From: Rhynchopus sp. YZ270_cl-10
Lineage: Eukaryota > Euglenozoa > Diplonemea > Diplonemida > Diplonemidae
Length of the DNA: 64,000 nucleotides
Direction: 5' to 3'
Assembly (NCBI GenBank): GCA_964035575.1
Contig: OZ037896.1
Location: forward strand, 1-64,000
Shown: positions 1 to 31,190 of the stretch, in pieces
Layout: each line of letters opens with the position of its first letter
Position numbering within the stretch: the stretch's first letter is position 1
Position numbers and translations under genes: made by a program
Notes under the pieces: generated by a model
Seen by the model: the letters and a program-made list of their open reading frames with translations, nothing else
What the model was told of the DNA's origin: nothing
The model's database searches: none

Positions 1-3000
1 CGGGTTTGCGGGTTTGCGGGTTTGCGGGTTTGCGGGTTTGCGGGTTTGCGGGTTTGCGGGTTTGCGGGTTTGCGGGTTTGCGGGTTTGCGGGTTTGCGGA
101 GTTTGCGGGTTTGCGGGTTTGCGGGTTTGCGGGTTTGCGGGTTTGCGGGTTTGCGGGTTTGCGGGTTTGCGGGTTTGCGGGTTTGCGGGTTTGCGGGTTT
201 GCGGGTTTGCGGGTTTGCGGGTTTGCGGGTTTGCGGGTTTGCGGGTTTGCGGGTTTGCGGGTTTGCGGGTTTGCGGGTTTGCGGGTTTGCGGGTTTGCGG
301 GTTTGCGGGTTTGCGGGTTTGCGGGTTTGCGGGTTTGCGGGTTTGCGGGTTTGCGGGTTTGCGGGTTTGCGGGTTTGCGGGTTTGCGGGTTTGCGGGTTT
401 GCGGGTTTGCGGGTTTGCGGGTTTGCGGGTTTGCGGGTTTGCGGGTTTGCGGGTTTGCGGGTTTGCGGGTTTGCGGGTTTGCGGGTTTGCGGGTTTGCGG
501 GTTTGCGGGTTTGCGGGTTTGCGGGTTTGCGGGTTTGCGGGTTTGCGGGTTTGCGGGTTTGCGGGTTTGCGGGTTTGCGGGTTTGCGGGTTTGCGGGTTT
601 GCGGGTTTGCGGGTTTGCGGGTTTGCGGGTTTGCGGGTTTGCGGGTTTGCGGGTTTGCGGGTTTGCGGGTTTGCGGGTTTGCGGGTTTGCGGGTTTGCGG
701 GTTTGCGGGTTTGCGGGTTTGCGGGTTTGCGGGTTTGCGGGTTTGCGGGTTTGCGGGTTTGCGGGTTTGCGGGTTTGCGGGTTTGCGGGTTTGCGGGTTT
801 GCGGGTTTGCGGGTTTGCGGGTTTGCGGGTTTGCGGGTTTGCGGGTTTGCGGGTTTGCGGGTTTGCGGGTTTGCGGGTTTGCGGGTTTGCGGGTTTGCGG
901 GTTTGCGGGTTTGCGGGTTTGCGGGTTTGCGGGTTTGCGGGTTTGCGGGTTTGCGGGTTTGCGGGTTTGCGGGTTTGCGGGTTTGCGGGTTTGCGGGTTT
1001 GCGGGTTTGCGGGTTTGCGGGTTTGCGGGTTTGCGGGTTTGCGGGTTTGCGGGTTTGCGGGTTTGCGGGTTTGCGGGTTTGCGGGTTTGCGGGTTTGCGG
1101 GTTTGCGGGTTTGCGGGTTTGCGGGTTTGCGGGTTTGCGGGTTTGCGGGTTTGCGGGTTTGCGGGTTTGCGGGTTTGCGGGTTTGCGGGTTTGCGGGTTT
1201 GCGGGTTTGCGGGTTTGCGGGTTTGCGGGTTTGCGGGTTTGCGGGTTTGCGGGTTTGCGGGTTTGCGGGTTTGCGGGTTTGCGGGTTTGCGGGTTTGCGG
1301 GTTTGCGGGTTTGCGGGTTTGCGGGTTTGCGGGTTTGCGGGTTTGCGGGTTTGCGGGTTTGCGGGTTTGCGGGTTTGCGGGTTTGCGGGTTTGCGGGTTT
1401 GCGGGTTTGCGGGTTTGCGGGTTTGCGGGTTTGCGGGTTTGCGGGTTTGCGGGTTTGCGGGTTTGCGGGTTTGCGGGTTTGCGGGTTTGCGGGTTTGCGG
1501 GTTTGCGGGTTTGCGGGTTTGCGGGTTTGCGGGTTTGCGGGTTTGCGGGTTTGCGGGTTTGCGGGTTTGCGGGTTTGCGGGTTTGCGGGTTTGCGGGTTT
1601 GCGGGTTTGCGGGTTTGCGGGTTTGCGGGTTTGCGGGTTTGCGGGTTTGCGGGTTTGCGGGTTTGCGGGTTTGCGGGTTTGCGGGTTTGCGGGTTTGCGG
1701 GTTTGCGGGTTTGCGGGTTTGCGGGTTTGCGGGTTTGCGGGTTTGCGGGTTTGCGGGTTTGCGGGTTTGCGGGTTTGCGGGTTTGCGGGTTTGCGGGTTT
1801 GCGGGTTTGCGGGTTTGCGGGTTTGCGGGTTTGCGGGTTTGCGGGTTTGCGGGTTTGCGGGTTTGCGGGTTTGCGGGTTTGCGGGTTTGCGGGTTTGCGG
1901 GTTTGCGGGTTTGCGGGTTTGCGGGTTTGCGGGTTTGCGGGTTTGCGGGTTTGCGGGTTTGCGGGTTTGCGGGTTTGCGGGTTTGCGGGTTTGCGGGTTT
2001 GCGGGTTTGCGGGTTTGCGGGTTTGCGGGTTTGCGGGTTTGCGGGTTTGCGGGTTTGCGGGTTTGCGGGTTTGCGGGTTTGCGGGTTTGCGGGTTTGCGG
2101 GTTTGCGGGTTTGCGGGTTTGCGGGTTTGCGGGTTTGCGGGTTTGCGGGTTTGCGGGTTTGCGGGTTTGCGGGTTTGCGGGTTTGCGGGTTTGCGGGTTT
2201 GCGGGTTTGCGGGTTTGCGGGTTTGCGGGTTTGCGGGTTTGCGGGTTTGCGGGTTTGCGGGTTTGCGGGTTTGCGGGTTTGCGGGTTTGCGGGTTTGCGG
2301 GTTTGCGGGTTTGCGGGTTTGCGGGTTTGCGGGTTTGCGGGTTTGCGGGTTTGCGGGTTTGCGGGTTTGCGGGTTTGCGGGTTTGCGGGTTTGCGGGTTT
2401 GCGGGTTTGCGGGTTTGCGGGTTTGCGGGTTTGCGGGTTTGCGGGTTTGCGGGTTTGCGGGTTTGCGGGTTTGCGGGTTTGCGGGTTTGCGGGTTTGCGG
2501 GTTTGCGGGTTTGCGGGTTTGCGGGTTTGCGGGTTTGCGGGTTTGCGGGTTTGCGGGTTTGCGGGTTTGCGGGTTTGCGGGTTTGCGGGTTTGCGGGTTT
2601 GCGGGTTTGCGGGTTTGCGGGTTTGCGGGTTTGCGGGTTTGCGGGTTTGCGGGTTTGCGGGTTTGCGGGTTTGCGGGTTTGCGGGTTTGCGGGTTTGCGG
2701 GTTTGCGGGTTTGCGGGTTTGCGGGTTTGCGGGTTTGCGGGTTTGCGGGTTTGCGGGTTTGCGGGTTTGCGGGTTTGCGGGTTTGCGGGTTTGCGGGTTT
2801 GCGGGTTTGCGGGTTTGCGGGTTTGCGGGTTTGCGGGTTTGCGGGTTTGCGGGTTTGCGGGTTTGCGGGTTTGCGGGTTTGCGGGTTTGCGGGTTTGCGG
2901 GTTTGCGGGTTTGCGGGTTTGCGGGTTTGCGGGTTTGCGGGTTTGCGGGTTTGCGGGTTTGCGGGTTTGCGGGTTTGCGGGTTTGCGGGTTTGCGGGTTT

Positions 3001-5175
3001 GCGGGTTTGCGGGTTTGCGGGTTTGCGGGTTTGCGGGTTTGCGGGTTTGCGGGTTTGCGGGTTTGCGGGTTTGCGGGTTTGCGGGTTTGCGGGTTTGCGG
3101 GTTTGCGGGTTTGCGGGTTTGCGGGTTTGCGGGTTTGCGGGTTTGCGGGTTTGCGGGTTTGCGGGTTTGCGGGTTTGCGGGTTTGCGGGTTTGCGGGTTT
3201 GCGGGTTTGCGGGTTTGCGGGTTTGCGGGTTTGCGGGTTTGCGGGTTTGCGGGTTTGCGGGTTTGCGGGTTTGCGGGTTTGCGGGTTTGCGGGTTTGCGG
3301 GTTTGCGGGTTTGCGGGTTTGCGGGTTTGCGGGTTTGCGGGTTTGCGGTTTGCGGGTTTGCGGGTTTGCGGGTTTGCGGGTTTGCGGGTTTGCGGGTTTG
3401 CGGGTTTGCGGGTTTGCGGGTTTGCGGGTTTGCGGGTTTGCGGGTTTGCGGGTTTGCGGGTTTGCGGGTTTGCGGGTTTGCGGGTTTGCGGGTTTGCGGG
3501 TTTGCGGGTTTGCGGGTTTGCGGGTTTGCGGGTTTGCGGGTTTGCGGGTTTGCGGGTTTGCGGGTTTGCGGGTTTGCGGGTTTGCGGGTTTGCGGGTTTG
3601 CGGGTTTGCGGGTTTGCGGGTTTGCGGGTTTGCGGGTTTGCGGGTTTGCGGGTTTGCGGGTTTGCGGGTTTGCGGGTTTGCGGGTTTGCGGGTTTGCGGG
3701 TTTGCGGGTTTGCGGGTTTGCGGGTTTGCGGGTTTGCGGGTTTGCGGGTTTGCGGGTTTGCGGGTTTGCGGGTTTGCGGGTTTGCGGGTTTGCGGGTTTG
3801 CGGGTTTGCGGGTTTGCGGGTTTGCGGGTTTGCGGGTTTGCGGGTTTGCGGGTTTGCGGGTTTGCGGGTTTGCGGGTTTGCGGGTTTGCGGGTTTGCGGG
3901 TTTGCGGGTTTGCGGGTTTGCGGGTTTGCGGGTTTGCGGGTTTGCGGGTTTGCGGGTTTGCGGGTTTGCGGGTTTGCGGGTTTGCGGGTTTGCGGGTTTG
4001 CGGGTTTGCGGGTTTGCGGGTTTGCGGGTTTGCGGGTTTGCGGGTTTGCGGGTTTGCGGGTTTGCGGGTTTGCGGGTTTGCGGGTTTGCGGGTTTGCGGG
4101 TTTGCGGGTTTGCGGGTTTGCGGGTTTGCGGGTTTGCGGGTTTGCGGGTTTGCGGGTTTGCGGGTTTGCGGGTTTGCGGGTTTGCGGGTTTGCGGGTTTG
4201 CGGGTTTGCGGGTTTGCGGGTTTGCGGGTTTGCGGGTTTGCGGGTTTGCGGGTTTGCGGGTTTGCGGGTTTGCGGGTTTGCGGGTTTGCGGGTTTGCGGG
4301 TTTGCGGGTTTGCGGGTTTGCGGGTTTGCGGGTTTGCGGGTTTGCGGGTTTGCGGGTTTGCGGGTTTGCGGGTTTGCGGGTTTGCGGGTTTGCGGGTTTG
4401 CGGGTTTGCGGGTTTGCGGGTTTGCGGGTTTGCGGGTTTGCGGGTTTGCGGGTTTGCGGGTTTGCGGGTTTGCGGGTTTGCGGGTTTGCGGGTTTGCGGG
4501 TTTGCGGGTTTGCGGGTTTGCGGGTTTGCGGGTTTGCGGGTTTGCGGGTTTGCGGGTTTGCGGGTTTGCGGGTTTGCGGGTTTGCGGGTTTGCGGGTTTG
4601 CGGGTTTGCGGGTTTGCGGGTTTGCGGGTTTGCGGGTTTGCGGGTTTGCGGGTTTGCGGGTTTGCGGGTTTGCGGGTTTGCGGGTTTGCGGGTTTGCGGG
4701 TTTGCGGGTTTGCGGGTTTGCGGGTTTGCGGGTTTGCGGGTTTGCGGGTTTGCGGGTTTGCGGGTTTGCGGGTTTGCGGGTTTGCGGGTTTGCGGGTTTG
4801 CGGGTTTGCGGGTTTGCGGGTTTGCGGGTTTGCGGGTTTGCGGGTTTGCGGGTTTGCGGGTTTACGGGTTTGCGGGTTTGCGGGTTTGCGGGTTTGCGGG
4901 TTTGCGGGTTTGCGGGTTTGCGGGTTTGCGGGTTTGCGGGTTTGCGGGTTTGCGGGTTTGCGGGTTTGCGGGTTTACGGGTTTGCGGGTTTGCGGGTTTG
5001 CGGGTTTGCGGGTTTGCGGGTTTGCGGGTTTGCGGGTTTGCGGGTTTGCGGGTTTGCGGGTTTGCGGGTTTGCGGGTTTGCGGGTTTGCGGGTTTGCGGG
5101 TTTGCGGGTTTGCGGGTTTGCGGGTTTGCGGGTTTGCGGGTTTGCGGGTTTGCGGGTTTGCGGGTTTGCGGGTTT
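1..5175 (+). repeat. Giant CGGGTTTG octanucleotide array (satellite)
   Basis: About 647 head-to-tail copies of an 8-bp unit (CGGGTTTG) run from the window edge to 5175, so the true array is longer. By eye it holds only two unit-length slips (near 99 and 3347) and two G-to-A changes (near 4864 and 4976), which implies recent expansion or strong homogenisation. GGG recurs every 8 bases on the plus strand, so G-quadruplex formation is plausible. All three plus frames stay open because the unit has no stop codon and 8 is not a multiple of 3; the predicted RVCGFAGL repeat is an artefact, not a gene. The array ends exactly where the first Helitron begins. Confidence 0.97.
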
Positions 5176-7055
5176 CTAGTTATTACGGGTTTGAGGGGTA
5201 CAAAATGGCGACGCTGCAGGATTGCTGGATCGCGTGGTCCCAGTATTTCTGATAATACACTCCGGTAGATTGGGGCCCAAAAACGACGTAATGTACTGGG
5301 TTTGGATGTTAGCATTTTCTGAAGATACCTAAAATGGGTGCGGCATTTCACGGCTATTTTTGTGAAGGAATTGACGATATTTTGTGGTTCTAAGGTGTGT
5401 GTATTGTATGTGACGAAAATTTCAAAATGTGACATAAGTATGAAATATGGCCAGTATGCCCATAAAATGAGGCCATTGCAACCCTGGAGGACCACATTGG
5501 ACATATTGGGCCAAATTTAGGTGTGTAAGTGTATCGGCTTTAAAATATTTTTTTTCGTGATTTTTGGGGTCATTTTTTGGCTGGGAAAATTGGGCCACAT
5601 TTAACCACAACTACTCAAAACATCAAATCTGTGGCTTTAATGGACTCATTGGGCGTTTTTATGACCTGGACATGGGGGTCAGATACCATTTTAGACATGT
5701 TAAAAATTGGTCAGAAGACCCTGAGAGAAGAACCAAGGTCAAATTGACCTTGAGTACTGGGTCAAATTTGTGTGGGAAAAATGCCCAGTACATAATTGTT
5801 GATGCGCAAAAGTGCAAAATTCCTTCAGCAATGGCTTCATATGACATTTCCATAACCTGGACATGGGGGTCAGACTCCACTTTTGACCACCTAAAATTTG
5901 GTCATACACATGTATGAGACCCCAAAAACCAGGATTTTGACCAAAAAATTTTTCCCAGCAATTTTTGCCTACAAAAAATCGAAAAAAAAATTTTTTGATT
6001 TTGGCTCTCCGGAGTCTGTGCGTGCTGTGGTGGGGTCAATTTGCGCTGAGAAATGGGTATTTTTGACCTAAAATGCATGGATCAGTTTTTTCATGATTTT
6101 TGGTGTTTTTGGTGTTTTGTGTGGGTTTTTTGGTCAGTACATAGTGTGCAGTGATCAAAAGTGCAAAGTTCCTTCGTCAATGGCTTCACAGGAAATTTTT
6201 ATGACCGGGACATGGGGGTCAGACTCCACTTTTGACCACCTAAAATTTGGTCATACACACGTGTGAGACCGCAAAAACCAGGATTTTGACCAAAAAAATT
6301 TTCCCAGGTACATAATCTGTGCACTGATCAAGATTACAAAATTCATTTGTATGGATGAATTGAATATCAGGTATGTGTAGGTTTCTGTGTGGGAAGTGGT
6401 GGTGATGAGGATAGGAAAAAAGAAACAGTAAAAGTGCGTGAGCTATTCAGTCATTTTGTGTGTTTTTTCTTTTTCTTTTTCTTTTTCCTTTTCTCATTTT
6501 TGATCTTTTTATTTTTATGGCATGACAATACTCTCACCCGCCAAAGTGAGCGCCTTCTTCAAGGTGTAGTCTTTTTTTAAAGCTATGTTTTAACCTCTTC
6601 CGCAAACCCGAAAACCCGCAAACCCTATATTTCCTTATTTTTTTTAATCCAAGACAAAAATATTTTCTTCATCACAAGAGAGTATCTCCGGCTGGGAAGA
6701 AAAAAACAACAAAAACTGCTGATCAAACCGGTCAAAAAGTCTCTGTAAAAATAAAAACTGCTACAATTTCCAAACTAATTGATTTTTTTTAAAACTAAAC
6801 GAACTCCACAAAAACAGTTTAAAAAAACAGTGAAACAGAAACAAAAATAAAATCCTTTTTTTTAGATGGGCTAAGCTTACCCAGTTTTTTTTTTCTCATA
6901 TTTTTTTTCAATCCAATGAACATGTTCAAACAAATATTTCTTCATCACAAGAGATTTAATCTGATTCTCTCCGGCTGGGAAGAAAAAAAAAATAAAAATA
7001 AAAATAAAAGTCTTTTACAGTAATTTACTGTAAAGAAAAAAAGGAAAAAATTTTT
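5176..7055 (-). repeat. Helitron copy 1, long 3' non-coding region with approx. 351-bp internal repeats
   Basis: About 1.9 kb with no convincing gene lies between the end of the Rep/helicase gene and the left terminus. It contains related blocks, each carrying a core like CAAAAGTGCAAAATTCCTTC, then TGGACATGGGGGTCAGA or a variant, then CACCTAAAATTTGGTCATA. Core starts near 5808 and 6159 give a period of about 351 bp; a third, decayed block starts near 6305, and an earlier half block lies at 5596-5720. The first 160 bp also occur in the 379-bp repeats at 16901-17868. Near 6600-6626 are two reverse-strand copies of the CGGGTTTG octamer. 6640-7055 is A/T-rich with long A and T runs. Confidence 0.75.
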
Positions 7056-10000
7056 TTAGTCAAGATCACCCGGTTGAAAGTCAGAAAGGTGATTGTCTGG
7101 AAATGTGGGGTAAATTAGGGCTTTTTTATGTGCTTTCAGTACATTTTCTGGAGTTCCTGTACCAATGTTGAAGTGGGGAGGTTGATAAGTTTGCACTATC
7201 AGCAGTCTCTTTTCTGATGGTATTTGCATAAGAACATCTTCAGGAGATTGCCCCTTTGGCAAAAAATGAAAGCAAGAATATCCTTCTGTCTCATAGGTCC
7301 TAGAAGTGACTACTGTGATAAGAGACCTAAGCATGAGAGACATCAGTGCTACTTCTACCTCCTGCGCATAACTGTCATCGGCATTATTTGTGACGCGTTG
7401 AAGAAGGTCATCAAAGTTCCTGTTTTGTTTACAGGTGTGGTAGAAAAGTTTAGGTTTGCGGGTTTGCGGGTTTGCACAAATACAAATGCTACATACCTTT
7501 TTTTTTTCTCTTCATCATCAAAAAGTAAGGGATGCTCCTGGATCATAATCTCATTCCTGAGCAAGAACTCTGCAAATCTTCTGCGTAGAGCATGACCATC
7601 ATTTCTTTTTCCAGTGAGGAGCTGCTGTATGGCGTGATAGAAACACGTTCCATCACCAGTAACGTCAATTTGTCCGAGGTTGAACCTGCTCAGAACATGT
7701 TGAATATTATTCTCATTGTTCCTGTAAAATATTGGTAATGGTTTTAAAGTTGTTGACCACGAAAAAAACATACCTATTTTTTTCAGAAACTGTAGTTGTT
7801 ACATTTTTTTGTGGATGAGAAGCTTCTGGAACGTTGTTGTGGATATATTCCCTGTATAAATTGTAGTGTATTATTTAATTAAAAATGTACAATAATTACT
7901 GTAACCATAATGTAATGCTAACATACCATCCCCCCTCTGGAAATGTAAAAGGATAGAAATCCATCGGTTGTTCTTCTTCATCCTTTGTCCAGGGAGTTAC
8001 TACAAGAGACCTTCCACATGCCGGGTTGTTGATTTCGTGTTCTTTATCATCAATGGGGCTTCCATCAGCATCAGGGGAACACACCACTGCAGGGTTTTCT
8101 GAAGGGTTTGCTGCACGTTCATGCATGGCCTTTGCATATACAGCCTCTGTAAGCCTCAGGTCCCGCTTCAGCTGATTCCTCCTTTCCTTACTGACCTTCA
8201 TCTTTATTCCCCCAACTGACTCCTCAATGGCAGAGATGACCTCCTGGTGGACACAGTTATACAAATTTGTATCACCTTGAGGTGGAAGACAAATCTTGAT
8301 GTCATTCCTGCTGCACACCCTTGACATTGCAACGTACAGATGGCCATGAGAGAAGCAGGGCGACTGTGACACATCAAGACCCACCCTCCTGAGAGTTTGT
8401 CCCTGAGACTTATTAATCGTCATGGCAAAAGACAGCCGCACTGGAAACTGCTGACGTACAAAGTCGATGGTGAGATCCTTCGCATCACCATCGCAGGGCA
8501 GGCGAGGTATGGCAACAGTTTCTGGCTTTTTCCCGTTTTTGTTCCGCCACTCGCATTCTTCCGCCAGGTGGGTGCAGACAAGGATGTTCTTCTTCACCTC
8601 CTTCACAACAAGACGCGTTCCATTGCACAGTCCACCTGCGGGGTCGAGGTTCTTTAGAAGCATTACAATACAGTTGACCTTCAGGTTCAGGATGTGTGGA
8701 GGAAGACGTGCATGGTTCATTGCATTGAGTGCTTCAGTGGTGAAGAATTCATTTGCTCCTGGGTCCTTGCAGGTATCCTCTGACATACGGGTAATTGTCT
8801 CTCCTGGGAAGCTGCTGAGAATTTTTTCGTTCATGTAGACCTGGCGTGCGTTTGTAGGGCACAGCAAAGCACAGTTCTCATACATTCCATTCTTGATGTC
8901 AGGAAATGTAAAGTCAATCAAAGTATCCTCAGTCACCTTTTTGTTCTTTTTTTCAAAAATGATAGCATGTGGCACCTGCATAACTGCTTCTGTGTCCTCA
9001 GCACCCTCCACATCCCCAGCCTCATTCACAGACCCATCACCAACCTTCATGAGGTACTCACGGAAAGCGTCGTCGTCCTTCACCCTCATGACCTGCGTCA
9101 GGGACATTTTTGTGAGTTGGTTCCAGAGGTATGAGTTGTGGAGCGAAATCGAGATGCTTTCAAAGCTCCCTTTGTTTGCCCCTGGAACAGGAAGGATTTG
9201 CCTGAAGTCTCCTCCAAGAAGCACTGTCACTCCTCCAAATGGTTGTGAACATCCCCTCAACCTCTGAAGCGTTCTGTCTACTACCTCTATGCTTGCCTTT
9301 TGTGCCATTACCACCTCATCCCAGACAATGAGGTCAGTGCGCCTTAGGAGTTCGACATGGTCATCATCAAGCCCGCACATCCGCTTTGAGTTTGGTTCAA
9401 GATCTATTGGGATCTTAAATCGGCTGTGTGCAGTTCTGCCTCCTGGTAGTAGTGTAGCTGCTATCCCTGATGTTGCCACAGCGATTGAAAAGCGGTCCTC
9501 CTCATTCTGTTGAAGTGGCTGCTGCTGCTGCTGCTGCTGTTGTTGCTTTGCCCTTGCCCTTCTGCTCCTGGCCCAGTACAAACACGCCTGGTACAGGAAT
9601 GTCTTGCCTGTTCCTGCTGCACCCTGCAAAAATATGACCTTCCCCTGGTTACCTTCAACAGATTCCTTCACAGAGTTGAAGACATTCTGCTGCCCTTCGT
9701 TGAGGTTGCCTTGAATCTGTTCAAACTTCTTCAGCATTTCACCCTCATCATACCTCTCTGTGTTTAAGACAAACTCTGTGCTCTGCCCTGTAGTACCTTC
9801 AGGAGGAGTGGGGAGCCCAAGATCTTCCATTGAAGTCTTAACGTTCGCTTCCTTAAGGAGCCGTTGCATGTCTAGCAAAGCTTTACGCTTCTCTTTAGGG
9901 TAGATGTGGTTGCTTGGTACTGCTTCCTCCCGTTCCTGCCTTTTTACTCTGTCCAAAGGTGGCGCACACAGCTCAAACTCATACTCTGCCCACGCCTTTG

Positions 10001-13000: not shown

Positions 13001-14600
13001 TGTTTAGATCAGCTCTTTGTTCCTCAACAATACTGCTCTGTTTTTCCATCTGAAACTCTGCTTCGTGAAACAGGGTCCCAGACATGTATTTTGCCTCTGA
13101 CTGTACAACGTCAAAATCAGCTTTGGAATGTTTCTCTATAAGCTCCCCCATGAGGTTCTGCTCTTTGATCATGAGCTCCTTGAGGTTTCTTATTTGCCGT
13201 GCACTCCATATAGACTTTGCTTCCTCCACAGAAGCTGGGTCGAACACCATTTTTGACATTGGGTCCACGTTTCTCAGCGTAACAAAACTGGCCTCATGCT
13301 CAAGCAAAAAAATCCTAGCTTTAACCTCCTCAAGCTCATCAAGTTTGGTATACGTCTGCTGCCTTTTTGTTTCAAGTGACTTTAGCTTTCTGAGATCCCA
13401 TTTTTTTTGCATGATGTCGACCACACAGTCGTTGAAGGTGTGAGATTTTGGTTTGTTGTCCTTAATCAAGGGAACATTTATGTGTGACCACAGCAGCACT
13501 TTTTGGAACCTTAGCAGATTATCCTGTGTGGCATAGTATGGCCTTGAAGAAGTCCTTAACGCCGAAATGCGAAATACTTCAGCTGAATGGAACAGCCAGG
13601 AAAATAACGGCGGTGTGTAATCGTTGAAGTCAAAGTACTGGGGAAGTTCTATGGCTGCCAAACACAAAACTGCTGCAACACTAGCAGACAGTGCAGGTGT
13701 TATAGCACTCACATTCTCCTTTTGTAACTCTCTCTCATCCTGTCCAAGCAAAATGTATGAAAGATAGTCCATTTTGCAATTGAGAGTTTTGAACCTCAGG
13801 CAGTATTGTGTGATGTGTTTCAGTAGAATATTTACCTCTGCAAACTGTGCATAGCAGTACGGACATGTTTTTTCGCAGGTTGCTGCATGTGATTTCATGT
13901 TTTTAACCTCGGTGAATTCTTCCCCACAGTGCTCACAGCAAAGTTTTCCTAAGCACGCATGATTTTCCTTCTGTGCCTGCAGAGGTGATGAAAAACTGCG
14001 CCTACAAAGAGTACAGGCAGGTTGACATTTTTTCAGATGCTCCGTCAATTTGTGAATACGTTTGTATGTAGCATCGCAATTAGGACATTTGAAACGGCCG
14101 TCTGAAGTCTTATCCAGTTTTTGCTTCTTGGGGGGTGGCACATCAGGAGTAGAAGGTGCTTCCTGAGGAGAAGGAGTAGAAGGTGCTTCCTGAAACCCAC
14201 CTGTGCAGCCCTTCTGATGATTGTGCCTCTCAAGGAAATTAGAAAACGTAATTCTGCACTTTGGACACGTTTTTTTGCATTTTTTTGAGCCTTTTTTGTG
14301 TGCTTTGAGCTGTTTATCTACTGCAAAGCTGGCACCACAGTTTTCACAAATGAAAGGTTTCTGCTCCTGCGCACTTCTTGGTTCATCATCTCCCCTCTTC
14401 CGTTTTGTACTGCATTCTACTGTTGTAGGTTCATTGCGCTCATCTTCTGTTTTTTCCTTTTCTTCATCATCCTCTCCAGTCTGTTTTTGAAAAGCTTCTG
14501 TATCATCTTCTTCTGCCTCCTGTGTTGCTTCTTTTGTTGTCTTAGGCTTTTTGTCAGCACGCCCATCCGCAGACCCGCTCTCACTACGTTGCCTTTTCAT
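7056..14600 (-). CDS. Helitron transposase: C2H2 fingers + HUH Rep + Pif1-like helicase + OTU protease (4 exons, copy 1)
   Basis: Predicted rolling-circle transposase of about 2446 aa. It should nick and join element ends (Rep), unwind DNA (helicase) and possibly cleave ubiquitin-like or its own chains (OTU). Exons on the minus strand: 14600-7927, 7851-7774, 7721-7497 and 7419-7056. The three introns (75, 52 and 77 bp) all start GTATGT and end AG, and phases match exactly. Order: charged N-terminus with KKPK; C2H2-type fingers about residues 80-270; Rep HUH motif in GLPHCHAILW near 1097; two-tyrosine motif YLFKYLFKG near 1253; Walker A GAAGTGKT near 1663; VWDE; GGDFRQILPV; KSQGQTLRR near 2068; YVAMSRV; OTU nucleophile GDGTCFYHAI near 2276 and His in PPHFNIG near 2406. 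The ATG at 14600 (MKRQRSES) is preferred to 14687 because the acidic/NLS region starts there. Introns are inferred, not tested. Confidence 0.92.
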
Positions 14601-20085: not shown

Positions 20086-20109
20086 GCGGGTTTGCGGGTT
20101 TGCGGGTTT
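20086..20109 (+). repeat. Short CGGGTTTG array (3 units) at the left end of Helitron copy 2
   Basis: Three octamer units join a Helitron-type right end (TTCTTCTTGTG) to the left end of copy 2 (CTAG at 20110). The same junction in front of copy 1 has more than 640 units. Confidence 0.95.
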
Positions 20110-21989
20110 CTAGTTATTACGGGTTTGAGGGGTACAAAATGGCGACGCTGCAGGATTGCTGGATCGCGTGGTCCCAGTATTTCTGATAATACACTCCGGT
20201 AGATTGGGGCCCAAAAACGACGTAATGTACTGGGTTTGGATGTTAGCATTTTCTGAAGATACCTAAAATGGGTGCGGCATTTCACGGCTATTTTTGTGAA
20301 GGAATTGACGATATTTTGTGGTTCTAAGGTGTGTGTATTGTATGTGACGAAAATTTCAAAATGTGACATAAGTATGAAATATGGCCAGTATGCCCATAAA
20401 ATGAGGCCATTGCAACCCTGGAGGACCACATTGGACATATTGGGCCAAATTTAGGTGTGTAAGTGTATCGGCTTTAAAATATTTTTTTTCGTGATTTTTG
20501 GGGTCATTTTTTGGCTGGGAAAATTGGGCCACATTTAACCACAACTACTCAAAACATCAAATCTGTGGCTTTAATGGACTGATTGGGCGTTTTTATGACC
20601 TGGACATGGGGGTCAGATACCATTTTAGACATGTTAAAAATTGGTCAGAAGACCCTGAGAGAAGAACCAAGGTCAAATTGACCTTGAGTACTGGGTCAAA
20701 TTTGTGTGGGAAAAATGCCCAGTACATAATTGTTGATGCGCAAAAGTGCAAAATTCCTTCAGCAATGGCTTCATATGACATTTCCATAACCTGGACATGG
20801 GGGTCAGACTCCACTTTTGACCACCTAAAATTTGGTCATACACATGTATGAGACCCCAAAAACCAGGATTTTGACCAAAAAATTTTTCCCAGCAATTTTT
20901 GCCTACAAAAAATCGAAAAAAAAATTTTTTGATTTTGGCTCTCCGGAGTCTGTGCGTGCTGTGGTGGGGTCAATTTGCGCTGAGAAATGGGTATTTTTGA
21001 CCTAAAATGCATGGATCAGTTTTTTCATGATTTTTGGTGTTTTTGGTGTTTTGTGTGGGTTTTTTGGTCAGTACATAGTGTGCAGTGATCAAAAGTGCAA
21101 AGTTCCTTCGTCAATGGCTTCACAGGAAATTTTTATGACCGGGACATGGGGGTCAGACTCCACTTTTGACCACCTAAAATTTGGTCATACACACGTGTGA
21201 GACCGCAAAAACCAGGATTTTGACCAAAAAAATTTTCCCAGGTACATAATCTGTGCACTGATCAAGATTACAAAATTCATTTGTATGGATGAATTGAATA
21301 TCAGGTATGTGTAGGTTTCTGTGTGGGAAGTGGTGGTGATGAGGATAGGAAAAAAGAAACAGTAAAAGTGCGTGAGCTATTCAGTCATTTTGTGTGTTTT
21401 TTCTTTTTCTTTTTCTTTTTCCTTTTCTCATTTTTGATCTTTTTATTTTTATGGCATGACAATACTCTCACCCGCCAAAGTGAGCGCCTTCTTCAAGGTG
21501 TAGTCTTTTTTTAAAGCTATGTTTTAACCTCTTCCGCAAACCCGAAAACCCGCAAACCCTATATTTCCTTATTTTTTTTAATCCAAGACAAAAATATTTT
21601 CTTCATCACAAGAGAGTATCTCCGGCTGGGAAGAAAAAAACAACAAAAACTGCTGATCAAACCGGTCAAAAAGTCTCTGTAAAAATAAAAACTGCTACAA
21701 TTTCCAAACTAATTGATTTTTTTTAAAACTAAACGAACTCCACAAAAACAGTTTAAAAAAACAGTGAAACAGAAACAAAAATAAAATCCTTTTTTTTAGA
21801 TGGGCTAAGCTTACCCAGTTTTTTTTTTCTCATATTTTTTTTCAATCCAATGAACATGTTCAAACAAATATTTCTTCATCACAAGAGATTTAATCTGATT
21901 CTCTCCGGCTGGGAAGAAAAAAAAAATAAAAATAAAAATAAAAGTCTTTTACAGTAATTTACTGTAAAGAAAAAAAGGAAAAAATTTTT
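20110..21989 (-). repeat. Helitron copy 2, 3' non-coding region
   Basis: Same content as 5176-7055: internal approx. 351-bp repeats, reverse-strand octamer remnants near 21534-21560 and an A/T-rich tract. No gene seen. Confidence 0.75.
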
Positions 21990-24900
21990 TTAGTCAAGAT
22001 CACCCGGTTGAAAGTCAGAAAGGTGATTGTCTGGAAATGTGGGGTAAATTAGGGCTTTTTTATGTGCTTTCAGTACATTTTCTGGAGTTCCTGTACCAAT
22101 GTTGAAGTGGGGAGGTTGATAAGTTTGCACTATCAGCAGTCTCTTTTCTGATGGTATTTGCATAAGAACATCTTCAGGAGATTGCCCCTTTGGCAAAAAA
22201 TGAAAGCAAGAATATCCTTCTGTCTCATAGGTCCTAGAAGTGACTACTGTGATAAGAGACCTAAGCATGAGAGACATCAGTGCTACTTCTACCTCCTGCG
22301 CATAACTGTCATCGGCATTATTTGTGACGCGTTGAAGAAGGTCATCAAAGTTCCTGTTTTGTTTACAGGTGTGGTAGAAAAGTTTAGGTTTGCGGGTTTG
22401 CGGGTTTGCACAAATACAAATGCTACATACCTTTTTTTTTTCTCTTCATCATCAAAAAGTAAGGGATGCTCCTGGATCATAATCTCATTCCTGAGCAAGA
22501 ACTCTGCAAATCTTCTGCGTAGAGCATGACCATCATTTCTTTTTCCAGTGAGGAGCTGCTGTATGGCGTGATAGAAACACGTTCCATCACCAGTAACGTC
22601 AATTTGTCCGAGGTTGAACCTGCTCAGAACATGTTGAATATTATTCTCATTGTTCCTGTAAAATATTGGTAATGGTTTTAAAGTTGTTGACCACGAAAAA
22701 AACATACCTATTTTTTTCAGAAACTGTAGTTGTTACATTTTTTTGTGGATGAGAAGCTTCTGGAACGTTGTTGTGGATATATTCCCTGTATAAATTGTAG
22801 TGTATTATTTAATTAAAAATGTACAATAATTACTGTAACCATAATGTAATGCTAACATACCATCCCCCCTCTGGAAATGTAAAAGGATAGAAATCCATCG
22901 GTTGTTCTTCTTCATCCTTTGTCCAGGGAGTTACTACAAGAGACCTTCCACATGCCGGGTTGTTGATTTCGTGTTCTTTATCATCAATGGGGCTTCCATC
23001 AGCATCAGGGGAACACACCACTGCAGGGTTTTCTGAAGGGTTTGCTGCACGTTCATGCATGGCCTTTGCATATACAGCCTCTGTAAGCCTCAGGTCCCGC
23101 TTCAGCTGATTCCTCCTTTCCTTACTGACCTTCATCTTTATTCCCCCAACTGACTCCTCAATGGCAGAGATGACCTCCTGGTGGACACAGTTATACAAAT
23201 TTGTATCACCTTGAGGTGGAAGACAAATCTTGATGTCATTCCTGCTGCACACCCTTGACATTGCAACGTACAGATGGCCATGAGAGAAGCAGGGCGACTG
23301 TGACACATCAAGACCCACCCTCCTGAGAGTTTGTCCCTGAGACTTATTAATCGTCATGGCAAAAGACAGCCGCACTGGAAACTGCTGACGTACAAAGTCG
23401 ATGGTGAGATCCTTCGCATCACCATCGCAGGGCAGGCGAGGTATGGCAACAGTTTCTGGCTTTTTCCCGTTTTTGTTCCGCCACTCGCATTCTTCCGCCA
23501 GGTGGGTGCAGACAAGGATGTTCTTCTTCACCTCCTTCACAACAAGACGCGTTCCATTGCACAGTCCACCTGCGGGGTCGAGGTTCTTTAGAAGCATTAC
23601 AATACAGTTGACCTTCAGGTTCAGGATGTGTGGAGGAAGACGTGCATGGTTCATTGCATTGAGTGCTTCAGTGGTGAAGAATTCATTTGCTCCTGGGTCC
23701 TTGCAGGTATCCTCTGACATACGGGTAATTGTCTCTCCTGGGAAGCTGCTGAGAATTTTTTCGTTCATGTAGACCTGGCGTGCGTTTGTAGGGCACAGCA
23801 AAGCACAGTTCTCATACATTCCATTCTTGATGTCAGGAAATGTAAAGTCAATCAAAGTATCCTCAGTCACCTTTTTGTTCTTTTTTTCAAAAATGATAGC
23901 ATGTGGCACCTGCATAACTGCTTCTGTGTCCTCAGCACCCTCCACATCCCCAGCCTCATTCACAGACCCATCACCAACCTTCATGAGGTACTCACGGAAA
24001 GCGTCGTCGTCCTTCACCCTCATGACCTGCGTCAGGGACATTTTTGTGAGTTGGTTCCAGAGGTATGAGTTGTGGAGCGAAATCGAGATGCTTTCAAAGC
24101 TCCCTTTGTTTGCCCCTGGAACAGGAAGGATTTGCCTGAAGTCTCCTCCAAGAAGCACTGTCACTCCTCCAAATGGTTGTGAACATCCCCTCAACCTCTG
24201 AAGCGTTCTGTCTACTACCTCTATGCTTGCCTTTTGTGCCATTACCACCTCATCCCAGACAATGAGGTCAGTGCGCCTTAGGAGTTCGACATGGTCATCA
24301 TCAAGCCCGCACATCCGCTTTGAGTTTGGTTCAAGATCTATTGGGATCTTAAATCGGCTGTGTGCAGTTCTGCCTCCTGGTAGTAGTGTAGCTGCTATCC
24401 CTGATGTTGCCACAGCGATTGAAAAGCGGTCCTCCTCATTCTGTTGAAGTGGCTGCTGCTGCTGCTGCTGCTGTTGTTGCTTTGCCCTTGCCCTTCTGCT
24501 CCTGGCCCAGTACAAACACGCCTGGTACAGGAATGTCTTGCCTGTTCCTGCTGCACCCTGCAAAAATATGACCTTCCCCTGGTTACCTTCAACAGATTCC
24601 TTCACAGAGTTGAAGACATTCTGCTGCCCTTCGTTGAGGTTGCCTTGAATCTGTTCAAACTTCTTCAGCATTTCACCCTCATCATACCTCTCTGTGTTTA
24701 AGACAAACTCTGTGCTCTGCCCTGTAGTACCTTCAGGAGGAGTGGGGAGCCCAAGATCTTCCATTGAAGTCTTAACGTTCGCTTCCTTAAGGAGCCGTTG
24801 CATGTCTAGCAAAGCTTTACGCTTCTCTTTAGGGTAGATGTGGTTGCTTGGTACTGCTTCCTCCCGTTCCTGCCTTTTTACTCTGTCCAAAGGTGGCGCA

Positions 24901-27900
24901 CACAGCTCAAACTCATACTCTGCCCACGCCTTTGCAACGTCTTCTGCAGTGGTCATGTAGTTTATTATTATCATTGCAAACGTAAAACGGATGGCACGTG
25001 AGGACAGTGTTGTATTGATGCACTCTTTCAGGGCGTTACGCAAGATTGCCCCATCATGGATAAGCCCCATTTCTGCTGCAGCTGCATAAAATGTAGGATG
25101 AACAACGGAGCCTATGGTTCTCAGCTCTTCAAAGCTGCATGATCCACGCTTGCACAGAAGAAGTAGACGGAGACAGTGCAACTCCTTATCCTTTACAGGG
25201 GCCCAGTACATCCTGCCGATTGAGAGGCCTTCTCCTTCATTTCTTTTTGAGTGAGGGCCAGGTTTATAGCAGCCTTCTTCCTCGCACCACCCATATCCCG
25301 GTCTCAGCTGCCATTCCTTCTTTTCTCTGGGGTAAGAAAAGAATTCTGGGACATCATTGTAAAGTAGTTTGTCAAAGCCTTTGTAGGCTTCATGTGCTGG
25401 AATGCCTTCACGATGCTTCTTGCATCTTTCATTTGCTTCGAAAAAGGCAAGGAGTGTACTTTTGGATTTTGCAGCCGCATCCCTTCTCCTTGAGTCATCA
25501 CCATAATTCTTTAAAGGAAAGTACACCCTCTGCTCATCTTCGAGGTGGATGTGGAGTCTCTGCACTCCTGGGTAAATCCGCACCATCTTTGTTCCGAGTA
25601 GGTACCCACAAGCATCAGCCGCAGTCAAACAATGTGCCTTCAGAAACCTCATAATGCTCCCAGTGGTCGTGGTCGTTGTTGTGGTTTTTGCTTCTGATGG
25701 CCCTCCTTTATGCTTTGTATCTTCCTTTATCACACCATCTACCTCATTCTCCCCCTTGAATAAGTATTTGAACAAATATTTAGCAGCAAGAATCCCGCGC
25801 ACTGCCTCAATGTTGATGTGGCACTGGTACTTGAGGAGAAGATACGCATTGTAGGGAACCACCCACCTGTTGTTCCTCTGGTTTGGGTGAGTAGTTTCCC
25901 CTGGGTGTTTTTCTTTCCATTTCTTCACAACGTCTGGATCCACATAAGACAGTATCCCATGATCCCTTCTTATGACAAAGGCGTAGCCATCATTGCCAGA
26001 GGTGGTGAAATCTCTGAAGTCCTTGGGGAAGTTGGACTTGCAATATTTGCACTTTCCATCCTTTCCCTTCTGTAGACAGGGAGAGCCTCTATTTTTAAGG
26101 CAGTCATTGTGCATGAGGTACTCGCTTACAGCTTTGTAGAGGTTAGGATGTGTTTCTGGGTCCGGGAGCTCAGCATGCACGATGTGGTCGATGTTGAACG
26201 GGTCCTTAGGTGACGTTTTATTGTTGTTCCAAAGGATTGCGTGGCAGTGAGGGAGCCCTCTCTTCTGGTACTCGGTCACCATCACCATTGCAATATTTTG
26301 TCCAAGAACATTCTTTTTGCGTATGTCGTCCACAAGTTCCTTGACTTTTAAGTCGAACACACGGTGAACAAGCTCCGGACGGTCGAGGGCCGTTTCTCCT
26401 TCGAGAAGATTGGATTGTATCTCCTCCCACATCGGGTTGCATGTCATTGTGAGAAAGAAATCAGCTTTCCCATACTTTGCGTATATTGCAAGTGTGTCGT
26501 TGAGTAATTGTGCCCTCGCAGCTACTCCTCTCTCAAATGAAGAAGGCATAGAGATTTCGTTTGTCGGTGGAATCTGTTTCCCAGAGGTGATGTCTTTCTT
26601 GGAGGCGTAGCCCATTCCCCTTCCAACAATATGGTATTTCAGTCGCTGATACATGCCACGCATCGCCATGTCGATGAAGAACTGCTGTGTCAGCGTTCCA
26701 TGCATGAGCAGGGGGTTGTAGGACAACGGGTCTTTGCTGCTGTTCGGACGGTGGTGCATGAGATATGTTGCGTACTGCTTTGCTGAGATGAATGTTGAAG
26801 ATGGTGTCGTTTCAGCTAGGTTAGTAGCGTTGCGAAGAACCTCATGCATTGAGTCCACAGCTCTGTCTTCTTCTGCACAACGTTCCCATCCACCATTCCA
26901 CTCTTCAGGGTCTACCTGCATCGCATCATCCTTTTCACCGCTGTTGAGCGCTTCAGGGTTTGGTGCTGTTGGTTCAGGGTTGTTCGTGTTTTGGGCATCA
27001 TCATCATCATCATCATCACTGTCAGATGCAGCTCCGCGGTTCACCACCCTGTGAGGCATCTTCAGGCGGAACCCATTATTCTCGGTGGGATTCAGATGGG
27101 CTAATGGATATGAAAGCAGTTCATAGAGTTGGTTAAAGTCATCAATGATGATTGGTGCGTTCCACTTTGGATCCTTACCCCCATTTTCAGCACACGTAAA
27201 CATTGGGTACACAGTAAATTTGCGCTCTGCAGGTGCGGCTTCATCGATGGTGTAGAACATCTTAACAGCACCCTTTGCCTCATCGGTTGTATATTCTGAC
27301 CCTGTCTTGCTTGCCAGGACTTCATGGAAGTCAATCCTCATCTTCTTCAGCTCATCCTCGCGACCCTTATACTGCTGTGAAATTGCTTTGAACTTTGCTG
27401 CAAATGCATTGTCTCCAAGAAGAAGATGACACTTCTCAGCAAGACCAAGAAGATTGTCAGGGAGGACCCCTCCAGTCATGCTTTTTTTATTGTCTGTGCT
27501 GCTGACGTTTGGATCAACAAACCAGGACTCTGTGAGAGCATCGTCATAAAAGCCATTGAATTTTTTTAATCCCCTACCTTCCAGAGCCACTGCTGAGAAG
27601 CCCTTTGGCACACGGCTGTCTCGGCGGATTTTGTTCTCTACCATCGCGAAGAATGCGTTCAGCTGAATTGAAACCCTTTTGTAGAATTTGTCCTGAAGAA
27701 GTTCAAGGTGGTCTTGGCTGATTATTTTGGGCATATCTGGCAGGGACACCTTTCCACCAGTGCAGCATATTTTTGATGACTCTCCACGAAACAGCAATGC
27801 CCCGCAATGCTTGCAGGGTTTGTCCATCTCTCCGCATGAGTGCTTCTTAATGCTGTCATCCACCTCTTCGCGCAGTGCTGCCCCCAGGTGCCGGTAGGTG

Positions 27901-29534
27901 AATATTTTTTTGACTCCCTGTCTCTGCAGCTTTCTGTTTAGATCAGCTCTTTGTTCCTCAACAATACTGCTCTGTTTTTCCATCTGAAACTCTGCTTCGT
28001 GAAACAGGGTCCCAGACATGTATTTTGCCTCTGACTGTACAACGTCAAAATCAGCTTTGGAATGTTTCTCTATAAGCTCCCCCATGAGGTTCTGCTCTTT
28101 GATCATGAGCTCCTTGAGGTTTCTTATTTGCCGTGCACTCCATATAGACTTTGCTTCCTCCACAGAAGCTGGGTCGAACACCATTTTTGACATTGGGTCC
28201 ACGTTTCTCAGCGTAACAAAACTGGCCTCATGCTCAAGCAAAAAAATCCTAGCTTTAACCTCCTCAAGCTCATCAAGTTTGGTATACGTCTGCTGCCTTT
28301 TTGTTTCAAGTGACTTTAGCTTTCTGAGATCCCATTTTTTTTGCATGATGTCGACCACACAGTCGTTGAAGGTGTGAGATTTTGGTTTGTTGTCCTTAAT
28401 CAAGGGAACATTTATGTGTGACCACAGCAGCACTTTTTGGAACCTTAGCAGATTATCCTGTGTGGCATAGTATGGCCTTGAAGAAGTCCTTAACGCCGAA
28501 ATGCGAAATACTTCAGCTGAATGGAACAGCCAGGAAAATAACGGCGGTGTGTAATCGTTGAAGTCAAAGTACTGGGGAAGTTCTATGGCTGCCAAACACA
28601 AAACTGCTGCAACACTAGCAGACAGTGCAGGTGTTATAGCACTCACATTCTCCTTTTGTAACTCTCTCTCATCCTGTCCAAGCAAAATGTATGAAAGATA
28701 GTCCATTTTGCAATTGAGAGTTTTGAACCTCAGGCAGTATTGTGTGATGTGTTTCAGTAGAATATTTACCTCTGCAAACTGTGCATAGCAGTACGGACAT
28801 GTTTTTTCGCAGGTTGCTGCATGTGATTTCATGTTTTTAACCTCGGTGAATTCTTCCCCACAGTGCTCACAGCAAAGTTTTCCTAAGCACGCATGATTTT
28901 CCTTCTGTGCCTGCAGAGGTGATGAAAAACTGCGCCTACAAAGAGTACAGGCAGGTTGACATTTTTTCAGATGCTCCGTCAATTTGTGAATACGTTTGTA
29001 TGTAGCATCGCAATTAGGACATTTGAAACGGCCGTCTGAAGTCTTATCCAGTTTTTGCTTCTTGGGGGGTGGCACATCAGGAGTAGAAGGTGCTTCCTGA
29101 GGAGAAGGAGTAGAAGGTGCTTCCTGAAACCCACCTGTGCAGCCCTTCTGATGATTGTGCCTCTCAAGGAAATTAGAAAACGTAATTCTGCACTTTGGAC
29201 ACGTTTTTTTGCATTTTTTTGAGCCTTTTTTGTGTGCTTTGAGCTGTTTATCTACTGCAAAGCTGGCACCACAGTTTTCACAAATGAAAGGTTTCTGCTC
29301 CTGCGCACTTCTTGGTTCATCATCTCCCCTCTTCCGTTTTGTACTGCATTCTACTGTTGTAGGTTCATTGCGCTCATCTTCTGTTTTTTCCTTTTCTTCA
29401 TCATCCTCTCCAGTCTGTTTTTGAAAAGCTTCTGTATCATCTTCTTCTGCCTCCTGTGTTGCTTCTTTTGTTGTCTTAGGCTTTTTGTCAGCACGCCCAT
29501 CCGCAGACCCGCTCTCACTACGTTGCCTTTTCAT
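21990..29534 (-). CDS. Helitron transposase: C2H2 fingers + HUH Rep + Pif1-like helicase + OTU protease (4 exons, copy 2)
   Basis: Same gene as 7056-14600. Exons on the minus strand: 29534-22861, 22785-22708, 22655-22431 and 22353-21990; the three GTATGT...AG introns are unchanged. All catalytic motifs (GLPHCHAILW, YLFKYLFKG, GAAGTGKT, GDFRQILPV, KSQGQTLRR, GDGTCFYHAI, PPHFNIG) are present, so this copy also looks intact. Intron 3 (22430-22354) again holds three octamer units. The long first exon alone reads 2234 aa from this ATG before a stop in intron 1; splicing is needed to attach the OTU domain, so an unspliced message would give a protein lacking the protease. Confidence 0.92.
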
Positions 29535-30066
29535 ATTATTTATGCCATGTGTTCCTATGCTAATGTATGTGAAGAAAGAAGGAATCTGGGAAACAATGTG
29601 AATAGAAATATTAATTCTCATTAAACTCTCTTTCGTTTTGGGGAAGTGTTTCCCTCTTCAGCTTATGTTGTCTTTGTATTAGCCTTCTTATTAGTGTGCC
29701 CATCATCAGATCTTTCCTCGCTTTCGTTGTCTTTTCATTTTTTTTTTTGCAAAAAGTAAAGTACCCAGACCACTGTTATGTTAGTTTTGAATAGTTGTGA
29801 TAAATTGCTAGAAATTGTATTGTAGAAAATATAAAATGGTGGGTGGGAGAAAGTTTTGAGTTTTCAAGAAGGAAAATAAAAAAGTCTCACAACTAAGTTT
29901 TCAAAAAAAAATAATTAAAAAATGATCTTGAAAATTTTGACAAAAATTAAAACCAATCTGCATGTGCATTAAAAAAAGGGGAACCCATATTTTTGCGCAG
30001 GAAGAAGTAATTTGCACATTCTCTGCGATAAGAAATACCCCCAAACGAAAAAAAAAAAATTATTCT
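29535..30066. other. Spacer between the two Helitron genes (copy 2)
   Basis: Same sequence as 14601-15132: A/T-rich, possible leader splice acceptor upstream of the transposase ATG, no gene. Confidence 0.5.
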
Positions 30067-30631
30067 CTAATGATGTGCTTTATTGTGCTGGAAAAGAGCA
30101 CCTTTGTGTTGAAATTCCCTTCCCCTCCAAGTACTAGAGCATTCGTGAGCATAACACGTCTTTGCTATTTTTTCGTCTTCTGCTGCTTCGCGCTTTCTCT
30201 TTCTGTCTAGCTCCTGTTGAGTTTGAGTTGTTGAAAGTGATACTTGAAAAGTTGATACATACCTTTTTCATGTCCTGACACAGAAGGAACACTTCGTTCA
30301 GCTGTTTCTTGAGATCTGAGACAGTCTGTTTCACCTCTTTCAGCTCTTCAGTCACTGAGGAAAAGCTTTCTGCAGAAACAGGAATTTCCAATGCTGCGGC
30401 CTGTTCTGACGGAAGCACAGAGTCCTTCTGAGTTTGCTCCTCTGTTTTAACGCCTTGCTCCTGTACCTTCGTTAGTACTGTCTCCTTCTTCTGGGAGCAC
30501 ACTGGAATTGGTGGCAATTCCTCATTCTCATGAGGAGCTTGATCCTGCACATTGAACACCGCCAACATGCTTGGTGCATCTTTCTTCTGCACAAAGGGCA
30601 CTGGCTTCCGCTTAATCTTCATGGTGTTCAT
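30067..30631 (-). CDS. Helitron accessory protein: coiled coil + zinc-finger-like C-terminus (2 exons, copy 2)
   Basis: Same gene as 15133-15697. Exons 30631-30263 and 30213-30067 are joined across a 49-bp GTATGT...AG intron, giving 171 aa with a central coiled coil and a Cys/His-rich tail. Function unknown; location inside both Helitron copies points to a role in transposition. Confidence 0.7.
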
Positions 30632-30842
30632 AGTTTTTTGAGAAATAGTTCACCTGTTTTTGGTGTGTGAGTACAAAAGTGCTATGAAAAGAGAAATGAG
30701 GGGTGAGCCAAGTTTAATTCATTTTTCTATTCAATTTTTTCGGCATTCACATTTGTAAAAATGCAAAACCTTCAGACAATAAAAAATAAGTTCTGTTCAC
30801 AACCACACCAGCCTCCTACATTTTAGCGAGCTTTCTTCTTGT

Positions 30843-31190
30843 GCGGGTTTGCGGGTTTGCGGGTTTGCGGGTTTGCGGGTTTGCGGGTTTGCGGGTTTGC
30901 GGGTTTGCGGGTTTGCGGGTTTGCGGGTTTGCGGGTTTGCGGGTTTGCGGGTTTGCGGGTTTGCGGGTTTGCGGGTTTGCGGGTTTGCGGGTTTACGGGT
31001 TTGCGGGTTTGCGGGTTTGCGGGTTTGCGGGTTTGCGGGTTTGCGGGTTTGCGGGTTTGCGGGTTTGCGGGTTTGCGGGTTTGCGGGTTTGCGGGTTTGC
31101 GGGTTTGCGGGTTTGCGGGTTTGCGGGTTTGCGGGTTTGCGGGTTTGCGGGTTTGCGGGTTTGCGGGTTTGCGGGTTTGCGGGTTTGCGG
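30843..31190 (+). repeat. CGGGTTTG octamer array right of Helitron copy 2
   Basis: About 43 units in the same orientation as the other arrays, with one TTTACGGG variant (near 30994). It ends abruptly at 31190 in the middle of a unit, directly against a LINE remnant. Confidence 0.96.

Follow-up and report, generated by a model that had tools for sequence, protein, structure and literature searches.

Helitron-like transposons that appear to insert at a fixed position in the chromosome-end octamer repeat of the diplonemid Rhynchopus sp. YZ270_cl-10

Bases 1-64,000 of contig C64 (1,335,164 bp) of Rhynchopus sp. YZ270_cl-10, hereafter the window, cover the start of the contig, where arrays of an 8-bp repeat, (CGGGTTTG)n, enclose two copies of a 10,733-bp Helitron-like element, Helitron A, and a non-autonomous relative, NA1. 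We consider it likely that Helitron A and its non-autonomous relatives are HUH/RepHel transposons which insert site-specifically at the C^A step of this chromosome-end octamer (..CCCGC^AAACCC..), and the data suggest a DNA transposon specialised in living at chromosome ends. In the assembly sampled (152.4 Mb, 126 contigs and hence 252 contig ends), the elements display a fixed octamer phase on both sides, a perfect empty site, a single orientation relative to the array, near-identical copies at many ends and a few direct 3'-to-5' junctions.

The initial annotation of the window had described a succession of array, Helitron, array, block, array, Helitron and array; this layout is present as listed below, and it recurs at further contig ends. 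Tandem Repeats Finder placed the CGGGTTTG arrays at 1-5175, 15908-16900, 20085-20109 and 30842-31190, and matches to three octamer units with at most two mismatches numbered 806, compared to 0 in 100 shuffles. The features of the block are the following.

1 to 5175, plus strand: octamer array (CGGGTTTG)n with which C64 opens, about 647 units; the outward strand reads (CAAACCCG)n
5176 to 15908, minus strand: Helitron A copy 1, 10,733 bp; 3' end CTAG at 5176, facing the contig end, and 5' end ACAAG at 15908
7896 to 14687, minus strand: RepHel gene of copy 1, 2263 amino acids (aa), with Helitron_like_N, PIF1 and Pif1_2B
15200 to 15697, minus strand: small open reading frame (ORF) of 165 aa within Helitron A, near its 5' end, without Pfam match
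15909 to 16900, plus strand: octamer array of about 124 units, with some CGGGTTTA variants
16901 to 20085, minus strand: NA1, non-autonomous element; Helitron 5' end at 20085, about 2.6 copies of a 379-bp repeat on the distal side
20086 to 20109, plus strand: octamer spacer of exactly 3 units, separating NA1 from Helitron A copy 2
20110 to 30842, minus strand: Helitron A copy 2, 10,733 bp, with one mismatch to copy 1 inside the element
22830 to 29621, minus strand: RepHel gene of copy 2, 2263 aa, reported 100% identical to copy 1
30843 to 31190, plus strand: most proximal octamer array, 43.6 units, meeting non-octamer DNA directly at 31191

When compared together with their flanks (5151-16256 and 20085-31190), the two copies show 2 mismatches in 11,106 bp, one of which lies in the element proper. 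NA1 has its 5' end in common with Helitron A, and its 379-bp repeat unit includes a variant of the 3' end, with TTAG where Helitron A has CTAG. Both sides of this middle block had been taken for Helitron-type ends: the 5' end at 20085 is genuine, but the opposite end is not intact, as the last 379-bp repeat is cut short at 16901, where octamers in a different phase take over. Similarly, the array that had been placed between the block and copy 2 exists but is limited to the three units.

At the protein level, the product of copy 1 carries Rep and PIF1 in one chain (PF14214, 2.2e-34; PF05970, 8e-54). The motifs PHCHA (residue 1124) and KYLFKYLFKG (1281), which we take to be the HUH Rep motif and the paired tyrosines, are followed by GAAGTGKT (1689), so that the combination of an HUH Rep bearing paired tyrosines with a PIF1 helicase, which defines RepHel proteins, is found. 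A protein search returned 395 candidates, the best 21 of which are all full-length (2263 aa) and reported 100% identical. Helitrons terminate at their 3' end with a CTRR motif. Because the gene lies on the minus strand and CTAG fits CTRR, the end initially called left is the 3' end and the one called right is the 5' end: each of these "right" ends does adjoin octamers, as had been noticed, but the labels were the wrong way round. From the letters of the window we therefore take ACAAGAAG / ACAAGAAGAAAGC as the 5' end of Helitron A and CTAG as its 3' end, facing outward. Gene direction alone is no proof of such an assignment, since Fusarium Helitrons with genes reversed relative to their termini are reported in excerpts of PMC5148889. 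The 3' boundary at CTAG was set by junctions in which CTAG is directly followed by ACAAG and by the continuity of the empty site described below; it fits CTRR, although the 73 matches reported below are no test of this motif, CTAG being part of the search pattern. Direct CTAG|ACAAG junctions occur at C28:105462, C28:116188 and C5:2053248 (L110, L111, L151), and fix the same element boundaries independently of the empty site. At a fourth spacer-less junction, C20:33178, CTAG abuts a variant 5' end, ACTAG.

The two ends of the element were then tallied genome-wide with their neighbouring sequences, the counts bearing on exact end motifs, with diverged and older copies falling outside them. The exact 5' end GAGCTTTCTTCTTGTG occurs 82 times and all occurrences adjoin octamers. 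In 78 cases it is followed by CGGGTTTRCGGG; two extra bases precede the octamers at C20:19228, and a single octamer precedes the 3' end of the next element at C55:1369577, at C68:26682 and, judging from match coordinates, at C9:196048. The exact 3' end CTAGTTATTACGGGTTTGAGGGG occurs 73 times: 69 occurrences adjoin octamers and 4 abut directly the 5' end of another element. It is preceded by CGGGTTT in 68 cases, and by octamers with an insertion or deletion at C54:1401201. None of these 82 and 73 ends adjoins anything but octamers or another element end. The insertion point is therefore CCCGC^AAACC, and when the flanks are joined by inspection they restore an unbroken array, CGGGTTT then GCGGGTTT, that is, a perfect empty site without target-site duplication. 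Insertion occurs at one position of the chromosome-end octamer for 82/82 5' ends and 69/73 3' ends, and the target is the C^A of the octamer rather than an AT dinucleotide. Of the two readings initially offered for the link between element and repeat, preferential insertion into existing octamers is thus borne out, the more so as at least seven element bodies share the same 5' end and target, and the outcome that would have spoken against any link, most copies lacking octamers, did not occur among exact ends.

The spacing between neighbouring elements obeys the same phase. Among the 16 gaps shorter than 1.5 kb that separate an exact 5' end from the next exact 3' end, 15 are multiples of 8 bp (1, 3, 3, 4, 7, 8, 19, 22, 25, 31, 31, 50, 52, 123 and 160 octamers) and one measures 881 bp; the probability of 15 out of 16 by chance is ∼4e-13. 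By comparison, 16 edges at which an array starts on DNA of another kind (chromosomal sequence, a different satellite or a truncated element) show seven phases for the first octamer base, versus a single phase at the 69 octamer-bearing exact 3' ends of Helitron A. These 16 edges were picked by eye from the 29 rows of edge tables in which edges with an identical flank are counted once; the rows left aside are 5 recognised A and B 3' ends (family B is described below), 5 noisy-array rows, 2 junctions to a CAGACCCG-type variant and 1 row without flank. Two further edges stand beyond the 16, L001, which starts with CCCGC, and L075, which starts with CCGC. The diverged 5' ends of another family, family C (ACGAGAAG), use the same octamer phase as Helitron A. 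A second family of 3' ends, family B (ACCTGAAACCCGGTAATATATATAGTGT and variants, then AACCCGC), has its own fixed octamer phase in 5/5 distinct cases (L067, L077, L082, L083, L130); short satellites of various kinds, G-rich or C-rich, lie before it. In L069 and L076, minisatellite-like CTAGGTTGCGTTATCTGGCTGGTGG units alternate with 37-40-bp octamer blocks and resemble miniature elements with a CTAG end.

The sequences behind the exact 5' end are diverse. In 30 of the 82 5' flanks that were compared, 17 match the Helitron A body through ∼1.5 kb and 6 match NA1 equally far; among the remaining 7, three share 246, 787 and 1009 bp with Helitron A before diverging, two have 287 bp in common with NA1 and two resemble neither. 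Behind an identical 5' end and target there are thus at least seven distinct bodies, which points to mobilisation in trans. The element ends point to 55 contig ends of 48 contigs. Their median distance to the nearer contig end is 21 kb for 5' ends and 17 kb for 3' ends (estimated lengths were used for C33 and C81), and 64/82 5' ends and 56/73 3' ends lie at most 50 kb from it. Orientation is also shared, the 3' end being turned toward the nearer contig end for 77/82 5' ends and 71/73 3' ends. As the octamers at a given end point one way, elements inserted in them have their 5' end inward and their CTAG 3' end outward, with whole octamers between neighbours. The proposal that the same-facing units are tandem products of rolling-circle transposition has to be narrowed accordingly: it fits the 4 spacer-less junctions among the 73 exact 3' ends (C28 twice, C5 and C20), direct head-to-tail junctions being consistent with such a mechanism as far as their sequence goes, but the shared orientation needs no tandem replication because the octamer array is itself oriented.

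We also asked where the octamer stands relative to the ends of the assembled contigs. Of the 111 contig ends read (54 left ones and 57 right ones out of 252, including the window itself), 65 have the octamer as the last sequence assembled, and at 64 of these 65 the C-rich strand runs 3' outward, the reverse of the G-rich 3' strand expected of a telomere. Left ends comprise 37 CGGGTTTG arrays, none of them reversed, and right ends 27 CAAACCCG arrays and one reversed (C8). The octamer is absent in either direction from 46/111 ends, and 17 contigs have it at both ends. All 60 ends of contigs C1-C30 were read; in this unselected set, 32/60 ends carry outward C-rich octamers and 1/60 the reversed form. 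Contigs beyond C30 were mostly picked for carrying element ends, which biases the octamer share upward there. The last 200 bp of these 111 contig ends contain no canonical telomere repeat, and no paper was found in a literature search with the octamer as a printed word. A tandem pattern of TTAGGG, TTTAGGG and TTTTAGGG gave 28 matches, at C32 (in the TTAAAGGG form), C52, C91 and an internal C92 array, none of them within 200 bp of the contig ends read. TATGGGG was considered as the real telomere, yet among the matches listed (90 of 122 forward) its arrays lie at the start of C9, inside C20 and 5.5 kb inside C91. TTAGGGG, among the matches listed (9 of 181 forward), is internal and found in both directions, inward at C27 and C37 and outward at C91, and was therefore treated as a satellite. 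Other 8-bp satellites (TGTGGAGC, CACAGGTG, AGCTAAGG and the CAGACCCG type) are present near contig ends, namely at 35254-36931 and 37356-37734 of the window, at the right ends of C10 and C30 and at both ends of C22.

Two composite tracts contain several of these repeats. At C20:43897-45032 (L047, L058, L073), 76 TATGGGG units stand outward of a family-C 3' end, and after them come CACACCCG and CAGACCCG octamers, 11 CAAACCCG units and a Helitron A 5' end. At C91:1217440-1223046 (L115, L130), the order outward from a family-C 3' end is 89 TATGGGG units, 821 bp of TTAGGGG with a few TTAGGG, a short stretch of octamers, a family-B 3' end that is likewise short, ∼130 octamers and a family-C 5' end. 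Judged by their order of repeats, both tracts look like end extension by changing templates, and that of C91 looks like an internalised chromosome-end tract. Transfer RNA (tRNA) genes of different kinds are densely clustered at two places, both beside octamer arrays, with 15 in 10 kb (L027, C64:1320001-1330000) and 5 in 3 kb (L007, C6:82934-85949). At C64:1325925 the octamer array begins in what we read as a broken tRNA T-arm, where ARAGORN made no call. A candidate for the telomerase reverse transcriptase (TERT) is encoded within one long ORF at C47:1117336-1117740 (L089): it matches PF12009 (Telomerase_RBD) with 26.2 bits for a cut-off of 25, and RVT_1 with 21.8 bits (E 1.7e-4), below the cut-off of 29.6. 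A protein search with this candidate yielded two relatives which both match the same RNA-binding domain, one just above and one just below the cut-off, and searches of the PDB returned low-complexity or chance matches, or none.

How could these arrangements arise? In the mechanism we favour, site-specific insertion, the Rep domain would cut the C-rich strand at C^A and join the 5' end of the element to the 3'-OH of CCCGC. The spacer-less junctions may represent concatemers from a circular or rolling-circle intermediate, and recombination between terminal arrays probably contributes to spreading the block and making it uniform. The octamers would come from another source than the element, terminal repeat synthesis or satellite amplification, the arrays being added to chromosome ends by that other process and later invaded by the element. 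A single cutting rule would account for three features at once, namely the fixed phase on either side, the absence of a duplicated target and the common orientation.

Several observations weigh against this interpretation. Five of the 82 5' ends face the opposite way, at four places (C8, C9 twice, C30 and C50), the terminal octamer array of C8 being itself inverted. On the side of the arrays where element 5' ends normally meet them, 13 distinct flanks were found and not all are Helitron 5' ends: 4 are Helitron A-type, 2 family C, 4 minisatellite, 1 a noisy array, 1 falls within family B and 1 (C1:560) bears no relation to any element. The 5' terminus is ACAAG instead of TC, and no significant 3' hairpin was detected in six distinct 3' ends (z -0.65 to 1.18 versus mononucleotide shuffles). 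The survey covers exact end motifs and, for the protein, the best 21 of 395 candidates, and neither an empty allele nor live transposition was seen in the assembly. Finally, a fixed phase would likewise be expected had recombination carried a few ancestral insertions from one end to another. In the alignment of the six 3' ends, ATTAC..GG and CCGTAAT segments were considered as possible partners in a long-range pairing.

This last scenario, a spread comparable to that of the yeast Y' elements in which one or a few ancestral insertions reach further ends through octamer homology, whether by exchange, break-induced replication or the integration of extrachromosomal circles, would let phase and orientation be simply inherited. 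The copies are near-identical, identical octamer arrays invite exchange, and equal spacings reminiscent of tandem duplication were found in C66 (3,121 bp twice, at 36416, 39537 and 42658) and in C28 (2,894/2,893 bp, at 88948, 91842 and 94735); MoTeR arrays are reported to recombine in this manner in excerpts of PMC7367193. However, at least seven bodies behind the same 5' end, together with the diverged 5' ends of family C, lie in the same octamer phase, which in any case calls for repeated insertions at this site. We regard such copying as a serious possibility, though as the sole origin of the pattern it is not what we expect; it can act alongside site-specific insertion, and the likelihoods we attach to the two overlap. 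Terminal addition, in which the 5' end of a Helitron joins a free C-rich 3' chromosome end and a telomerase-like enzyme then extends the CTAG end with octamers, the array growing as those of Drosophila HeT-A, predicts the observed orientation, 5' inward and 3' outward. It is in line with octamers that start in varying phases on truncated elements or other DNA, as end healing would produce (at L068, where an element is reduced to 179 bp of its 5' part and octamers lie outward of the cut, at L027 and at 31190 of the window), with the outward shifts in repeat type along single tracts at C20 and C91 and with the existence of a TERT candidate. But healing should vary in phase, as it does at the 16 other edges, whereas the octamers that follow CTAG are in the array-restoring phase at all 69 octamer-bearing exact 3' ends, and insertion covers both fixed phases with one rule; we therefore think terminal addition unlikely.

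It had also been suggested that the octamer is made or expanded at the junction during rolling-circle replication. Slippage or reiterated copying, perhaps seeded by CAAACCCG within the 3' end, would be a way to produce it. The 3' end of Helitron A does contain one octamer (CAAACCCGTAATAACTAG), and AAACCCG, a part of the target octamer, lies near the 3' terminus in Helitron A (10 bases inside it, window 5176), in family B (16 bases, L077) and in family C (7 bases, L017); this motif may be a recognition site. However, 4 of the 6 distinct A-type 3' ends examined (L008, L022, L080, L113) lack AAACCCG and adjoin octamers nonetheless, four junctions join two elements without any octamer between them, and the arrays flank the elements on both sides, begin on unrelated DNA in the seven phases mentioned above and are so often outermost on the contigs that the element is very improbable as their maker.

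Were the octamer a true telomere, the C-rich strand would be the 3' strand, in reverse of the usual rule; a simpler alternative is that a further terminal repeat beyond the octamers was left unassembled. The bolder version, in which (AAACCCGC)n is the real telomere with inverted polarity, chromosome ends are octamer/Helitron mosaics, and the Helitrons help to maintain them by joining their 5' end to the terminal 3'-OH, octamers being added after each CTAG, strikes us as distinctly doubtful. If true, the chromosome end would be built partly by a rolling-circle transposon.

Elsewhere in the window, a 2662-aa ORF lies on the minus strand at 42950-50938, with long tandem repeats of 36 and 60 bp at 43485-46524 and a 288-bp repeat at 50148-50767; its best Pfam match is PLipase_C_C (9.6e-9), with no single stretch significant. 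No Rfam match was found in the window at gathering scores.

These elements matter in two respects. With at least 21 copies that are near-identical and look intact, a naturally site-specific HUH transposase lends itself well to the study of Helitron target choice, and an octamer that is G-rich in the wrong direction, with no canonical telomere repeat in the terminal 200 bp read, makes chromosome-end maintenance in this lineage directly testable.

Helitron A shares with Helitrons a Rep (Helitron_like_N) and a PIF1 helicase in one 2263-aa protein, a CTAG terminus that fits CTRR and the lack of target duplication. Target choice by canonical Helitrons is little constrained, and retrotransposons are known that strictly target the repeats of chromosome ends. 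The TRAS and SART elements of Bombyx insert sequence-specifically into terminal repeats; these non-LTR (long terminal repeat) retrotransposons cut with an endonuclease domain and, although they target terminal repeats like Helitron A, have no rolling-circle protein. In yeast, Y' elements are tandem, same-facing, helicase-coding subtelomeric units with short telomere tracts between them, which spread by recombination; they share their tandem, same-facing, helicase-coding layout with the Helitron A array but are not known to carry an HUH Rep. Excerpts of PMC5148889 describe canonical Helitrons with a 5' TC inserting in an AT dinucleotide, in contrast to the 5' ACAAG, the octamer C^A target and the strict site and orientation of Helitron A; tandem and joined-end Helitron forms are reported in parts of the same source and of PMC12628747. 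The Terminons of bdelloid rotifers are large elements arranged head-to-tail at chromosome ends with short telomeric repeat stretches, but they are described in excerpts of PMC6431247 as Penelope-like retroelements attaching through their own complementary repeats. No report of a Helitron with fixed-position insertion into a terminal repeat was found among the matches listed in the open-licence literature, the nearest being that of Oscheius tipulae, in which Helitron-like sequences with a Pif1-like gene are present on 11/12 telomere extensions; its chromosomes end in TTAGGC, and fixed-position insertion in this repeat is not described in the excerpts of PMC8022731. The MoTeR elements of Magnaporthe form head-to-tail arrays at chromosome ends whose spacers are telomere-repeat tracts measuring between half a unit and over 20 units, as given in excerpts of PMC7367193; these are however retrotransposons in TTAGGG with their 5' ends outward, whereas Helitron A is a RepHel DNA element that turns its 3' end outward and sits in an octamer with the C-rich strand running 3' outward. 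The subtelomeric Helitron-like genes of O. tipulae and the MoTeR arrays are thus the closest precedents for Helitron A.

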